Shown here: positions 37,528-50,106 of the stretch, piece after piece
Layout of the letters: each line of letters begins with the position of its first letter
How positions within the stretch are numbered: position 1 is the stretch's first letter
Virus record (IMG/VR): IMGVR_UViG_3300036853_000113
Span: 1-61,626 of that record
DNA length: 61,626 nucleotides
Source of the DNA: a virus
Direction: 5' to 3' (one strand)
The notes under the pieces: generated by a model
Database searches by the model: none
Told to the model about the DNA's origin: nothing
Seen by the model: the letters and a program-made list of their open reading frames with translations, nothing else
Position numbers and translations under genes: made by a program

Positions 37528-37705
37528 CGCGCCAGCGAGTGAAAGTTATCCATAACCCGCCGAGAGCACCAATGAAGGCGAGTGAGCCACAATCCGCGAG
37601 AGCACCATGGGTAATGAGCGAACCATGTCCGGCGAGAGCACCAACAACGGAGAGTGAACCACCGAGGATGAGAGCACCAGAAAACATGAGTGAACCCGAT
37701 GACAA
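37528..37705 (+). repeat. Family A repeat array 1 (18-bp step, alternating 10-mers)
   Basis: Eight clear units start at 37562, 37580, 37598, 37616, 37634, 37652, 37670 and 37688, all exactly 18 bp apart. They alternate GAGAGCACCA and GAGYGARCCA, each followed by 8 unrelated bases. Weaker units ending in CCA precede them back to the stop of the nuclease gene. The last unit ends directly before the ATG of the next gene at 37699. There is no dyad or terminator, and the orientation matches transcription. Confidence 0.9.
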
Positions 37706-43436: not shown

Positions 43437-43565
43437 TCATGTCGCGGTAGGGCCAGCCTGGGCCCGGTATGGCGTGACTGGGCACGGCGGGGCAAGGCGA
43501 GGGCTCGCGTCCTCAGAGGCGCGAGCACAACACTAACGAACGATCTCACGGCGAAAGAGAGAGCT
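43437..43565 (+). repeat. Family B module 1: GGCNN pentamer run plus hairpin
   Basis: After the stop of the preceding gene, pentamers in register read GGTAG GGCCA GCCTG GGCCC GGTAT GGCGT GACTG GGCAC GGCGG GGCAA GGCGA. They end in a hairpin with arms GCTCGCG (43503-43509) and CGCGAGC (43520-43526) and an inner CCTC/GAGG pairing. An A/C-rich tail (CACAACACTAACGAACG) leads to the next gene. GG every five bases also fits a two-tier G-quadruplex pattern in RNA. Confidence 0.85.
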
Positions 43566-44206: not shown

Positions 44207-44362
44207 ACAGAATAGACGGTTGCATCAGGGCAAGGTGTGAGCGTGGCTTGGTAAGGCGGTGGCGATGGCGCGGCTGGGCGGGGTATGGCAGGATCCGGTT
44301 TGGCATGGTTTGGTTCGGAACCGCGTTCCCAGGAGCGCGGAAGTTTAGTAAGTCAGTCTCAC
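44207..44362 (+). repeat. Family B module 2: pentamer run plus hairpin
   Basis: From about 44229 the sequence steps GGCAA GGTGT ... GGCTT GGTAA GGCGG, one irregular 7-base step, then GGCGC GGCTG GGCGG GGTAT GGCAG GATCC GGTTT GGCAT GGTTT GGTTC. It ends at about 44322-44341 in a hairpin with arms CCGCGTTCC and GGAGCGCGG (one G-T pair). The tail GAAGTTTAGTAAGTCAG follows. It has the same design as module 1 with different variable bases. Confidence 0.85.
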
Positions 44363-44492
44363 ACGCGGCGGGACACGGCTTGGCGTGGCGGGGCTAGGCG
44401 GGGATCGGCACGACTAGGCGGGGCAAGGCAGGGACCCGCGCTCTCAGAAGCGCGGAAAGTTTAAGAAACGATTTCCTCGAACTTCTCGTTCA
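44363..44492 (+). repeat. Family B module 3: pentamer run plus hairpin
   Basis: A run in perfect 5-bp register: GGCGG GACAC GGCTT GGCGT GGCGG GGCTA GGCGG GGATC GGCAC GACTA GGCGG GGCAA GGCAG. The hairpin arms CCGCGCT and AGCGCGG (about 44437-44456) enclose CTCAGA. The tail is AAAGTTTAAGAAACGATT. No gap or insertion breaks the period over 13 units, although most third to fifth bases vary. Confidence 0.87.
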
Positions 44493-44655
44493 TGGCTTGG
44501 TGGGAACGAGGTGCGGCACGGCGGGGTGAGGCCCGATGAGGCCCGGTATGGCAGTGTAAGGCGTGGCCCGGCTGGGTGTGGAATGGCCTGGTGTGGTGTG
44601 GCAGGGGGCCGCGTTTTCCGGAACGCGGTCACAACTAAACAAACGGAGATGGGAA
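44493..44655 (+). repeat. Family B module 4: longest pentamer run plus hairpin
   Basis: About 22 pentamers run from GGCTT GGTGG through GGCAC GGCGG GGTGA GGCCC GATGA GGCCC GGTAT to GGTGT GGTGT GGCAG, with one 6-base step. The hairpin arms CCGCGTT and AACGCGG (about 44610-44629) enclose TTCCGG. The tail CACAACTAAACAAACGGAG resembles that of module 1 and provides the GGAG ribosome site of the next gene. Confidence 0.85.
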
Positions 44656-45099
44656 ATGCAATCACGGTATCCACTCGACTGGGAGTTACTACAAAAGGGC
44701 GACGTGCTCGACGCTGAGACGCTGAAGGATATAACTGGAAAGACGCCGGGAAGTGATGAGTTTCGATTCGCGTGCATGGGCCTGCAAGCATTGATTCAGG
44801 AGAAGACAGGCTTCACTGTGAAGCTGCCGAGTGATAACTCACTGCGCGTGTTGACAGACCCAGAGGCAGCAGCGCACAACGAGCGCCTGTTCTGGCAATT
44901 CATGCGGTCGATGGTTACACGCCACACCCTGAACTGCTCTGTCGACGTCGACAATCTAGAGGCGACACAGCGAGCGCAGCATGACCGCACGCTGCTTGCT
45001 CAATCGCGTTACGTATCAGCAGTGGCGCAGACGACGAAAGAGATTGTGCTTGCAAGAAATCCTCCCGAGCCAGAACCGCTCGACGATGGAACGCGATGA
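44656..45099 (+). CDS. Hypothetical protein, 147 residues
   Basis: The start is the ATG after the module 4 tail; a longer GTG-started frame would run back through the pentamer array and is rejected. Visible blocks: YPLDWELLQKGDVLDAETLK, FACMGLQALIQEKTG and ERLFWQFMRSMVTRHTLNCS. It is helical and resembles phage proteins placed before HNH nucleases, but no function is known. The stop overlaps the next start (ATGA). Confidence 0.62.
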   Translation: MQSRYPLDWELLQKGDVLDAETLKDITGKTPGSDEFRFACMGLQALIQEKTGFTVKLPSDNSLRVLTDPEAAAHNERLFWQFMRSMVTRHTLNCSVDVDNLEATQRAQHDRTLLAQSRYVSAVAQTTKEIVLARNPPEPEPLDDGTR

Positions 45100-45617
45100 T
45101 CACGACGAAGGCATTCAATGAGGTCACCGCGCAGAAGCGTCGCTCGATGGCGGCGCGGCTGAAGCCTCGTTACTGGAAGTCAGGCAAGCGCGCAGGCATG
45201 GTGCGCACGCCAGGGTGCGAGCTGCCGTTCAGCCTGCACCAGTTTCGCCAGTGGGCAATGGAGAAGGTCGGCCTCGGCATCGTGTCATGTCACTACTGCC
45301 CTCGGCCTGTCGATGTGTTGAGCTTCGAGCCGGATCACTATGTACCGATCGCACTCGGCGGAAGCTTCGGCCTCGACAACCTTGTGGTGAGCTGTAGCGA
45401 CTGCAACAAAATGAAGGACTCGATGCTGCCGCAGGATTTCATCGACCTGATGAAGTTCCTCGAAACAAATATGTCGCGAGTGAGTGCGAACAACGTCACG
45501 AAGCGCCTGCGAGCTGGCTCGATGGGCATCAAAAACAGATTTCATAAACCGTCAGTTGAGGGAGCGAAGAAACCGCCTGCGCCTGTCGCGACGACGCAGG
45601 AGATGGATTTCTTCTAG
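45096..45617 (+). CDS. HNH endonuclease
   Basis: In this 173-residue protein, CHYCPRPVDVLSFEPDHYVP, IALGGSFGLDNLVVSCSDCN and KMKDSMLP form a clear HNH core with two Cys pairs and the catalytic DH. The N-terminal half is very basic (KPRYWKSGKRAG). The last residues (EMDFF) end at a TAG that lies in a degenerate repeat unit: array 2 of family A starts at once. It is one of three HNH genes in this genome. Confidence 0.85.
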   Translation: MITTKAFNEVTAQKRRSMAARLKPRYWKSGKRAGMVRTPGCELPFSLHQFRQWAMEKVGLGIVSCHYCPRPVDVLSFEPDHYVPIALGGSFGLDNLVVSCSDCNKMKDSMLPQDFIDLMKFLETNMSRVSANNVTKRLRAGSMGIKNRFHKPSVEGAKKPPAPVATTQEMDFF

Positions 45618-46196
45618 CCATCTTCCTAGCGAGCACCAGAAGAACTGAGCGAGCCATGTAACCCAATAGCACCACGAGACAGTGAGCGAGCCAAGCACAG
45701 CGAGAGAGCACCAGCAAATGAGAGCGAGCCATAACATGCGCGAGCACCAGATAAGTCGAGCGCACAGCCGGATGACATGCGAGCACCAATAACGGAGAGC
45801 GAGCCACGAGACGTGAGAGCACCAACAACCCAGAGCGTCAGCCACTTCACTTGCGAGTACCAATCATGCGGAGCGCAGCCATGAGAAAGGAGAGCACCAA
45901 GATTGCTGAGTGAGCCAAGATGCCTGAGAGCACCAGAAAAAGAGAGCGCAGCCAAACAGCGCGAGGGCACCAATGGTAAGGAGCGAGCCCGGATATGGCG
46001 AGAGTGCCAACAGGAGTGAGCGAGCCAACACAGTAGAGAGCGCCAGGAAGAAAGAGCGCAGCCACAATGAACGCGAGCACCAGCGCTCCAGAGCGAGCCA
46101 ATGTAGTAGAGGGCGCCATTGACGCCGAGCGAGTCAAGCAATTCGAGAGCACCCAGAGCACAGAACGATACCAGTTACACAAAGGAGCGCAACACC
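45615..46196 (+). repeat. Family A repeat array 2 (largest, about 30 units)
   Basis: Alternating cores GAGAGCACCA (variants GCGAGCACCA, GAGAGCGCCA, GAGGGCGCCA) and GAGCGAGCCA (variants GAGCGCAGCCA, GAGTGAGCCA) run without interruption from 45629 to about 46173. Spacers are nearly always exactly 8 bases. Where a core is longer by one to three bases, the step grows to 19-21 but the spacer stays 8. The spacer sequences share nothing. The array fills the whole gap between two genes and merges into the ribosome site of the next one. Confidence 0.93.
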
Positions 46197-47108
46197 ATGA
46201 CTGATCTTGTTTTAGAGCCGCTGCAACGTCTTACGAAAGACCTTGCGAACGCCTCCATCACCCTCACCGTCCGCGAGGCGCGTTACCTCGTCGATGCTTA
46301 CTACATGCTTCAGGAGAATCGCATCGCTGCTGATCATCAGGTGCGCACGCTCATTAAGGGCGACGAGCCGCATCAGGTGATTGAATGGCTCGCGGCTCAG
46401 AATGAAGGGCTTGAGCACCAGATCAAGCGCGCGCTCGACAAGTGGACGGACGGCAATCCTGTCGGCGTGTGGGCGAAAAGCATCTGCGGTATCGGTCCTG
46501 TCATCAGTGCAGGACTGCTCGCGCACATCGACATTGCCGGATGCCCCACGGTCGGCCACATCTGGAGCTTCGCCGGTCTGGACCCGACGAAGAAGTGGAA
46601 CAAGGGCGAGAAGCGGCCATACAACGCATCGTTGAAGTCGCTCGTCGCATTCAAGCTGGGCGAGTCGTTCGTCAAGGTTCAGGCGAATCAGAACGACATC
46701 TACGGGAAGGTATATGTCGAGCGGAAGAAGCTGGAGCAGGAACGCAACGAGGCGCAGCTCTTCGCAGCGCAGGCGAAGGTCGGGCTGGAGCGCGTAAAGA
46801 AGACGACGGACGCGCATAAATACTACAAAGAAGGCAAGCTGCCGCCAGCGCAGATACACGCACGAGCACGACGCTATGCGGTGAAGCTCTTCCTCGCGCA
46901 TTACCACGCGGCTGCGTTCTTCTCGCGCTTCGACATGATGCCGCCGTTTCCGTATGCTTTCAGTCATCTCAAGAGCCACGTACATTTTCTTGCACCGCCT
47001 AACTGCCATTTGATCGAAGGCATGCCGGCTGCGCTTGCACGTTATGAGCGCGAGCTACTGGAGAGTCAGGCAACCAAAGCCGTCGAGAGTACCCAGATTG
47101 CTGAGTGA
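46197..47108 (+). CDS. Helix-hairpin-helix protein related to the IS110 transposase C-terminal domain
   Basis: The middle of this 303-residue protein reads VWAKSICGIGPVISAGLLAH, DIAGCPTVGHIWSFAGLDPT and KKWNKGEKRPYNASLK, close to the Transposase_20 (IS116/IS110/IS902) helix-hairpin-helix block. Two expected transposase features are missing. No N-terminal RuvC-like DEDD domain is visible, and the usual Ser-Ser-Gly catalytic loop is replaced by KKWNKGEK. The C-terminal third (IHARARRYAVKLFLAHYHAA) is basic and helical. Similar proteins occur in other phages. Family A arrays lie on both sides, and its last codons and stop are themselves repeat units. Confidence 0.75.
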   Translation: MTDLVLEPLQRLTKDLANASITLTVREARYLVDAYYMLQENRIAADHQVRTLIKGDEPHQVIEWLAAQNEGLEHQIKRALDKWTDGNPVGVWAKSICGIGPVISAGLLAHIDIAGCPTVGHIWSFAGLDPTKKWNKGEKRPYNASLKSLVAFKLGESFVKVQANQNDIYGKVYVERKKLEQERNEAQLFAAQAKVGLERVKKTTDAHKYYKEGKLPPAQIHARARRYAVKLFLAHYHAAAFFSRFDMMPPFPYAFSHLKSHVHFLAPPNCHLIEGMPAALARYERELLESQATKAVESTQIAE

Positions 47109-47368
47109 GCCACGCATGACGGAGAGCACCACAAACCGTGAGCGAACCAAGTAGGTTGAGAGCACCCGGAACGACGAGTGAGCCATCACGCGGGAGAGCA
47201 CCACAAAACACGAGCGCAGCCAGAACTCCTGCGAGCACCAAGAATAGAGCGAGCCAATGATTCGGAGAGCACCAGTTGGGAGTGAGCGAGCCAAAGAAAA
47301 AAGGAGAGCACCACCAATGCAGAGTGAGCCAGCGACCAAGATAGCACCGGAGCAGGAGAGCGCGATCA
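47085..47368 (+). repeat. Family A repeat array 3, extending into both flanking genes
   Basis: About sixteen units start at 47085 and 47103 (inside the 3' end and stop codon of the previous gene), then 47122, 47140, 47158, 47176, 47194, 47212, 47231, 47247, 47265, 47284 and 47304. Further units at 47322, 47340 and 47358 lie inside the next coding sequence. Steps are 18-20 bp except one of 16. The conserved 10-mers appear in coding DNA as the codons for ESTQIAE at the C-terminus and QSEPATKIAPEQESA at the N-terminus. Confidence 0.9.
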
Positions 47369-48331: not shown

Positions 48332-48516
48332 CCACGAGGGGCTGAGAGCACCAAACGATGCGAGTGAGCCAAGTAGCCAGAGAGCGCCAAGGTCGGCGAG
48401 TGAGCCAGTGACCATGAGAGCACCATTGCACTACGCGCGAACCAATTACGCCGCGAGCACCACACTTGTCGAGTGAGCCAGGATGTCTGAGAGCACCACA
48501 CACGGAGAGCGCATTT
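48332..48516 (+). repeat. Family A repeat array 4
   Basis: Units start at 48344, 48362, 48380, 48398, 48416, 48435, 48453, 48471 and 48489, with a last partial one at 48507. All steps are 18 bp except one of 19. The A/B alternation is kept throughout. There is no gene in most of this interval; a small protein gene may begin near its end. Confidence 0.9.
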
Positions 48517-48780: not shown

Positions 48781-50106
48781 ATGTCGATTCTCAATCTGAA
48801 TTACGTTCTGTGGGATGAAGTGAAGAAGGCAAAGGTAGCAGGCTGGCCGCTACCGGCAACGTCTGCTGACCTCTACGCATACCAGCGCATCGAGCGAGCT
48901 GCACCGGAATACAAGAAGGCAGGCTTCACAGCTGCGCTCTTTCAACCGAGTCAGCGGGGGGCTGCTGGCAGATTCTCGAATGGCTACGACAAGAAGGACG
49001 ACTACGAACTGGACGGCACTTCATGGGGCGACGGCGCAATGGGCATCGCAGCTGTGAGCGCGCTGCACGATGAAGGCATGAAGGTCTACGGCGATTTGGT
49101 TCTGCATCAGATGAGCGGCTATCCGCGACAGCAGTACACGACACCGCGGTTCCCCAAAGACCCAACCTGCTTTGCGTGGACGCCGGGCGCAGTCAGGTGG
49201 CCGGGCAACGTCGCTCCTGACTCGGTGCCTGATCCCAAGGGCGGCTACCCTGACGGTGATCTCTGCGCGTATGACCAACCGAATCGCTATATGTGGAACG
49301 GTGCAATTGCAGCGACGATCTGGCTCGCAGATGAGATGGGCTTTGACGGCTTCCGCATTGACGAGGCGAAAGACTTGCACGCGGATTTTCTGCGCGCTCT
49401 GATGGATACGCAGAGACTCCATAACAAGTTTTTCTTCGGAGAATACTTCGACGGCAATCCCTTCGCGCTTGCAGGTTGGGTCAACTACTGGATGCACCGC
49501 AGAGCGTCTGCGCTCGACTTCATGTTTAAGTTCAACGTCGGGCGCATCTGTAACAACGCAGGTAATGTGTGGATGGGTGAGCTGTCGCGCATTGGCCTCA
49601 ATATGATTGAGCCTTTCAAGGCTGTCACCTTCCTCGAATCGCACGACACAGACACGACACCCGGCGAGCAGATCATTTCTAACAAGATGCTCGGCTACGA
49701 CATCATGCTCACTTTCCCTGGCGAGCCGATGGTCTATTACCGCGACTGGTCGACCGACGCGCACTGCTACGGGATGAAGGAACGAATCAACAACGGGCTA
49801 TGGATTCATCAGCACCTCGCGCAAGGCGATTTCGTCACTCGTCATGCGGAGTATCAAACCTTTGCGCACGAGCGCCTCGGTCGAGGGAAGGCACCCGGCT
49901 GCATCTGTCTGTTCAACAACGATCCTTACAACGCGCACACCATCACTGTTCAGACTCGGCACCCGCGCGACACGAGGCTGCACGAGTTTACCGGCAATGC
50001 AGGTTACTCTGCCGACGTGTGGACTGATTGGTGGGGCTGCATCACTGCGACGGTCCCGCGCAACGTCAACGGCTGCAACTCTCTCGTTTACGCACCCTAC
50101 CTGTAA
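48781..50106 (+). CDS. Family 13 glycoside hydrolase (alpha-amylase-like)
   Basis: In this 441-residue protein the conserved regions are easy to see. Region II GFDGFRIDEAKD has the nucleophile Asp194. Region III KFFFGEYFDG has the acid/base Glu221. Region IV VTFLESHDTDTTP has Asp289. Region I, normally DxxxNH, reads YGDLVLHQ, so the usual His is Gln110 and substrate binding may differ. There is no signal peptide. AAGGAG lies before the ATG. It should hydrolyse or rearrange alpha-glucans: an auxiliary metabolic gene using host glycogen, or a virion enzyme. Confidence 0.88.
   Translation: MSILNLNYVLWDEVKKAKVAGWPLPATSADLYAYQRIERAAPEYKKAGFTAALFQPSQRGAAGRFSNGYDKKDDYELDGTSWGDGAMGIAAVSALHDEGMKVYGDLVLHQMSGYPRQQYTTPRFPKDPTCFAWTPGAVRWPGNVAPDSVPDPKGGYPDGDLCAYDQPNRYMWNGAIAATIWLADEMGFDGFRIDEAKDLHADFLRALMDTQRLHNKFFFGEYFDGNPFALAGWVNYWMHRRASALDFMFKFNVGRICNNAGNVWMGELSRIGLNMIEPFKAVTFLESHDTDTTPGEQIISNKMLGYDIMLTFPGEPMVYYRDWSTDAHCYGMKERINNGLWIHQHLAQGDFVTRHAEYQTFAHERLGRGKAPGCICLFNNDPYNAHTITVQTRHPRDTRLHEFTGNAGYSADVWTDWWGCITATVPRNVNGCNSLVYAPYL

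Follow-up and report, generated by a model that had tools for sequence, protein, structure and literature searches.

Our analysis of IMG/VR virus record IMGVR_UViG_3300036853_000113 over its full 61,626 bases (the window) concerns a gene at 46197–47108, here tasA, and the repeat arrays on either side of it. We are confident that this locus is a TIGR-TasA system, a new member of the TIGR-Tas systems published in 2025 (PMC12045711). Those features of TIGR-Tas that can be tested by sequence are found here, namely a Nop protein, alternating repeats with short spacers, a unit of about 36 nucleotides (nt) and CCA ends, the exception being a terminator, for which the window shows no site beyond chance. 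Our own observations cover the protein family, its fold, the anatomy of the arrays, their association with the gene, the turnover of their guides and an absence of self-targets above chance. The elements concerned are as follows.

46197–47108, plus strand: tasA gene, 303 amino acids, solo Nop/HhH (helix-hairpin-helix) protein without a nuclease domain
45615–46162, plus strand: upstream TIGR array, ~30 alternating repeats (~15 units), beginning where the HNH gene before it ends, at its stop codon
47085–47365, plus strand: downstream TIGR array, ~16 repeats (~8 units), overlapping the last tasA codons and the likely start (47317) of the next gene
48344–48513, plus strand: third TIGR array, ~9 repeats
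37562–37679, plus strand: distal TIGR array, 7 repeats, ~8.5 kb upstream of tasA
45797–45832, plus strand: example 36-nt unit, consisting of edge GAGCGAGCCA, spacer A, loop GAGAGCACCA and spacer B

First of all, the protein. Pfam finds no nuclease domain in TasA and matches Transposase_20 (PF02371) in the HhH part alone (residues 94–133, E 2.5e-4), while the PHROG family phrog_4285, labelled 'transposase', covers residues 8–259, nearly the full length, at E 4.6e-47. A sequence-only reading of this DNA had described an IS110-like HhH core lacking both the DEDD domain and the Ser-Ser-Gly loop, and this description holds: beside the Pfam HhH match, the IS110 structural match starts at model residue 22 against enzyme residue 125, leaving the DEDD (RuvC-like) domain absent, and Ser-Ser-Gly, the IS110 C-terminal catalytic loop, has 0 occurrences in the translated sequence, read directly. 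A family profile built from 33 homologues matches TasR (9mty, E 5.8e-23) and TasH (E 7.7e-13) ahead of IS621 (8.9e-5) and ISCro4 (7.1e-4), and in the profile search the C-terminal motif of the family is aligned with TasR. For the AlphaFold model of TasA (pLDDT 89.3, pTM 0.86), the top ten PDB matches by Foldseek are all TasH or TasR chains, and the VIA Z is 19.5 for TasH, 17.8 for TasR (193 residues, 2.4 Å), 12.6 and 12.5 for the IS110 enzymes and 7.2 for archaeal Nop5. The match to Tas structures begins at residue 21–26, with some 21 residues before the aligned Nop region, too few to accommodate an HNH or RuvC domain at the N terminus. As judged by sequence and model together, the product of 46197–47108 is of the TasA type, that is, a Nop protein without a nuclease domain, and its closest solved relatives are TasR and TasH, with the IS110 enzymes second. 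The structural comparison proposed in the sequence-only reading thus upholds a likeness to the IS110 family and denies it the closest kinship; the further description of the protein as a domesticated transposase is not supported, and the published view is that TasA may instead be ancestral to IS110 (PMC12045711, Discussion). Phage homologues of TasA, none of which appear at a strict E limit, were found at E up to 1, and the family counts at least 561 related stretches. One locus (L018:105–2225, minus strand) encodes a Tas protein of 707 amino acids whose conserved KTLC/WKIGESF motif is interrupted by a large insertion. This insertion, which ends ...VHN before Cys, reads like an intein.

Second, the arrays alternate the 10-nt repeats GAGCGAGCCA and GAGAGCACCA with 8-nt variable spacers at a period of 36 nt, the assignment of edge and loop being based on duplicated pairs and on breakpoints in relatives. 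Both repeats end in CCA (box C), with GAG replacing the box D 'UG' of the TasR type at the start of both. The nine-nt stretches that follow the two repeats (2,012 and 1,912, parsed from 129 sequences among which some loci overlap) begin with A in 85% and 82% of cases, respectively, and their other eight positions are near random. The window array starts with a truncated edge repeat, and the TGA stop codon of tasA lies inside the edge repeat GAGTGAGCCA. A permissive scan gives 30 repeats at 45629–46162 and 17 at 47085–47365, a few of them spurious; as a chance control, 36 kb of non-array window DNA contains only 7 such repeats at up to 1 edit, and the arrays are thus no product of chance. The earlier figures of about 30 units upstream and 16 downstream are right as counts of repeats, corresponding to ~15 and ~8 dual-spacer units. 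An Rfam search of the window gave 0 matches.

Third, gene and arrays occur together. A strict three-repeat pattern, used as the array search, finds 76 stretches in 61 records (counted from the listing) among IMG/VR viral contigs; the 257 Gb of bacterial and archaeal genomes searched contain only 3 stretches, distributed over two metagenome-assembled genomes. These are a Gemmatimonadetes genome (L126) and a Candidatus Solibacter genome (L083/L084), and the matches may hint at hosts or be mis-binned phage contigs. Members of the phrog_4285 family are encoded by 51 of the 61 array-bearing viral records at E ≤ 1e-3 (42/50 plus 9/11); the ten records without a match measure 4.4–57 kb, and several are short pieces or have a single pattern match without a long array. 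Conversely, of 80 loci picked by protein similarity alone, a set with near-duplicates and with some contigs that the array pattern had also found, 75 have a 35–38-nt period close to the gene (identity of at least 0.50 across 216 nt), against 22 of 460 control segments. Of the five misses, L263 shows a short upstream array by eye, and 7 array repeats are present in L249. A less strict de novo search for periodicity was dropped, with 105 of 465 controls positive. Near arrays lie on the strand of the corresponding gene (tas) and often start ~15 nt from the end of the open reading frame; one relative (L063) has ~50 almost perfectly regular units directly after the gene. The tas stop codon falls within the first truncated edge repeat, followed by a loop repeat, in 22 of 47 stop-codon contexts; in 13 of the 47 a loop repeat is lacking within 32 nt. 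Of 32 records, 13 have further arrays at a distance of over 3 kb from tas, some on the opposite strand (two of the records, G002 and G061, are copies of one phage); for most fetched records, the phage nature was judged by homology to window genes. Tas proteins bind array RNA according to PMC12045711, and by homology to them, together with same-strand adjacency and co-occurrence in both directions, it is strongly supported that TasA is the partner of the arrays. The sequence-only reading had put the gene product forward as a candidate for this role and had asked whether gene and arrays co-occur, naming frequent occurrence of the family in phages without arrays as a ground for abandoning the idea; the two-way counts support the proposal, and array-free members are few among the protein-chosen loci.

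The family extends to cultured phages. The cyanophage Microcystis phage Mvi-JY20 (L331:2510–3600) carries a clean nine-unit dual-repeat array after its phrog_4285 gene, and this array has a clear terminator-like end. Thor gp72 (L329:2216–3259) belongs to phrog_4285 at E 1e-128, and a search with it returned 85 matches, 77 of them Mycobacterium phage records, one of the 85 covering only 10% of the query. The match in TurkishDelight was rejected as a Tas, being a full IS110-type protein with phrog_2199 as its best family. Upstream of Thor gp72 are five palindromic units with two spacers each, which resemble, by analogy, the stem-loop TIGR form described in print. In mycobacteriophages the gene is usually annotated as a hypothetical protein or a transposase; the 'transposase' label conceals a stem-loop TIGR-like locus, which has a Cas4-family exonuclease, called simply an exonuclease in some records, on one side and the immunity-repressor region on the other. 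In six mycobacteriophages whose tas genes are 96.2–98.2% identical, only 0–2 of 10 spacers are identical, and the mean identity is 0.39 in spacer columns against 0.89 in stem, loop and linker columns, with spacer slots that we placed by box C and by the conserved CG after it, guided in part by alignment variability. The SarFire array is identical to that of Thor.

Guides turn over far faster than tas, an observation that, as far as we have searched, goes beyond PMC12045711. Two records (G041 and G057) that are ~94–99% identical over most long aligned blocks have 23 spacers in common among 75 and 86 unique ones. Across 75 dereplicated loci, the mean fraction of the smaller spacer set that is shared, binned by tas nucleotide identity, is 0.40 at ≥97% (2 pairs), 0.14 at 94–97% (2), 0.25 at 90–94% (6), 0.07 at 85–90% (14), 0.05 at 80–85% (6) and 0.001, equal to chance, below 80% (666), the upper bins being rough owing to their few pairs. 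Eight pairs of relatives were compared for where shared spacers give way to unshared ones: this boundary falls 91 times in the GAGCGAGCC repeat and 30 times in the GAGAGCACC repeat, whereas shared neighbours span GAGCGAGCC 39 times and GAGAGCACC 59 times (Fisher p 1.2e-7, with pairs that share loci and are thus non-independent). As boundaries concentrate in the GAGCGAGCC repeat, gain and loss proceed by the whole unit (edge, A, loop, B). The 32 records agree with this in their exact duplicates of adjacent pairs, 5 versus 1, two of the five being one pair in the copies G002 and G061. Furthermore, 29 unit pairs within a source differ at no more than 4 of 16 spacer positions, compared with a mean of 1.5 and a maximum of 7 under a column-shuffled null (1,166 units from 63 sources, with G061, G062 and G024 removed as copies and 35 hand-picked loci added); this excess indicates that some guides arise by unit duplication and divergence. 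No clear CRISPR-like polarity of new spacers is seen (mean relative position 0.45 for shared and 0.52 for unshared spacers), and no whole-unit sharing was seen between unrelated phages, the sharing groups looking like relatives or copies of one record.

In search of what the guides recognize, we required spacers A and B to match opposite strands with a gap of 0–2. The strand order was derived by us from the published overhang and C-5 rule, and wrong geometries were for that reason used as controls. With 1,972 pairs of adjacent spacers, taken in both registers and scanned over 2.1 Mb and the loci in four distinct geometries and with shuffled pairs, we saw no convincing enrichment of self-targets or of targets in other array-bearing records. 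Exact self-targets in the published geometry number 0 in 32 records, and counts at 1–3 mismatches equal those for shuffled pairs and wrong geometries. There are no self-targets in the window at ≤1 mismatch, none in Mvi-JY20 at ≤2 mismatches in 100 of its 108 kb, and 0 exact or 1-mismatch self-targets in six 50-kb genome stretches of the six mycobacteriophages. Guide pairs of Thor units 4 and 5 gave 0 matches against all of IMG/VR. Two Mvi-JY20 guide pairs had one IMG/VR match each, on contigs without nucleotide similarity to the compared phage records, and both were read as chance.

Taken together with published work, these data suggest the following model for TIGR-TasA. The arrays would be transcribed with the phage operon, and the transcript, by analogy with published TIGR-Tas work, would be cut into 36-nt tigRNAs, each with two 8-nt variable spacers between box-C-like CCA ends. 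A TasA dimer may hold one tigRNA, with spacer A matched to one DNA strand and spacer B to the other, the dual-strand targeting again being taken from the published systems. TasA would then bind and bend a target of ~16–18 bp without cutting it. We would place this target outside the phage's own genome, in a competing mobile element or the host, where binding would block its transcription or replication; for this target class, we put the chance somewhat below even. Guides are replaced rapidly as whole units, with the protein and the repeats kept. More tentatively still, strong selection for new guides could act on TIGR-TasA as a guide system without a nuclease, possibly to out-compete other mobile elements or the host: Tas and the repeat scaffold would be retained, and spacers would be rewritten within ~2% tas divergence through gain and loss of whole units, through duplication followed by divergence and through in-slot replacement, without recognised adaptation genes (no search was aimed at Cas1/Cas2).

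Several points weigh against this model. The repeats of the window are less regular than those of many relatives, and no terminator-like site beyond chance is found near its arrays, so the array may be partly decayed. In all array-bearing records, the GAGAGCACC-as-loop register with gaps of 0–2 gives 7 exact matches against 2, 6, 3 and ~1 in four shuffles and 1–3 in other geometries, a small and unconvincing excess that is probably noise. Finally, a target outside the phage's own genome rests on the absence of found targets. The foremost alternative is that the guides act on the phage's own genome, with TasA as an RNA-guided regulator or an aid to replication or packaging. Arrays sit between co-directional phage genes, DNA bending by TasA has been predicted in print, and the arrays more than 3 kb from tas would suit such a role; on the other hand, guides change while the phage backbone stays, and the lack of self-targets above background makes own-genome regulation unlikely, the guides probably aiming at unsampled DNA.

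A split TasH, in which the HNH gene upstream acts in trans to cut the targets, seems to us more doubtful again. The gene in question is the following.

45096–45617, plus strand: HNH endonuclease gene, abutting the upstream array; probably not part of the system

Apart from its position here, homologues are close to tas in G031 (at 1.2 kb) and G038 (at 1.0 kb), but a homologue is present in only 11 of 32 records and near tas in only these two and the window, and it lies 30–90 kb from tas in G009, G041 and G057; HNH as a general component of the system was accordingly rejected. That TasA is a domesticated IS110 transposase whose arrays serve as a bridge-RNA-like substrate for recombination is very improbable: the PF02371 match does exceed the gathering score, the PHROG label agrees with it and IS621 and ISCro4 are the second-best structural matches, yet the protein is without DEDD and Ser-Ser-Gly, and TasR and TasH are closer in both sequence and fold. 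The arrays as protein-coding repeats (Gly-Ser-Leu/Gly-Ala-Leu hexads on the minus strand) with an incidental neighbour can be dismissed, since long minus-strand frames do cross them but the arrays of many relatives have stops in all six frames, some spacings break the frame and the arrays recur near tas.

Elsewhere in the window, four G-rich tracts with a five-base, GGCNN-like period occur at 43441–43515, 44257–44336, 44357–44446 and 44500–44629, each apparently followed, by eye, by a GC hairpin and then by a gene or the next tract; the same scan did not find such tracts in the two nearest relatives, G062 and G031. A glycosidase-like gene at 48781–50106 has an alpha-amylase catalytic domain match below the Pfam cut-off.

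The discovery paper leaves open the targets of TIGR guides, the origin of spacers and the role of the nuclease-free TasA (PMC12045711), and our literature search, made by listing and with subscription journals and preprints mostly outside its reach, gave no paper on guide turnover or natural TIGR targets. The TIGR-TasA phage family is large, and the comparisons made here quantify the turnover of its guides and show the unit in which it proceeds. Because a relative with hypervariable guides is present in cultured mycobacteriophages that grow on M. smegmatis, the questions of target, spacer origin and TasA role can be tested at the bench.

In comparison with known systems, TasA shares the RNA-binding HhH/Nop fold with the IS110 bridge-RNA recombinases IS621 and ISCro4, from which it differs in its missing catalytic elements and in having an array instead of a single bridge RNA. 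The Nop fold is also common to TIGR-TasH (Salicola phage CGphi29) and TIGR-TasR (9mty), whose HNH and RuvC domains have no counterpart here. With respect to the published stem-loop arrays (PMC12045711, section 9 and Fig. 7 legend), mycobacteriophage relatives of the same PHROG have palindromic two-spacer units, whereas the window has the dual-repeat form. The dual-repeat TIGR-TasA of Flavonifractor (FpTIGR; PMC12045711) likewise has a solo Nop protein, edge/loop arrays up- and downstream, 36-nt units, CCA ends and a truncated starting edge. Compared with FpTIGR, the arrays described here are more numerous and longer, can be dispersed away from tas and often have their first edge fused to the tas stop codon, and their fast guide turnover has been measured.
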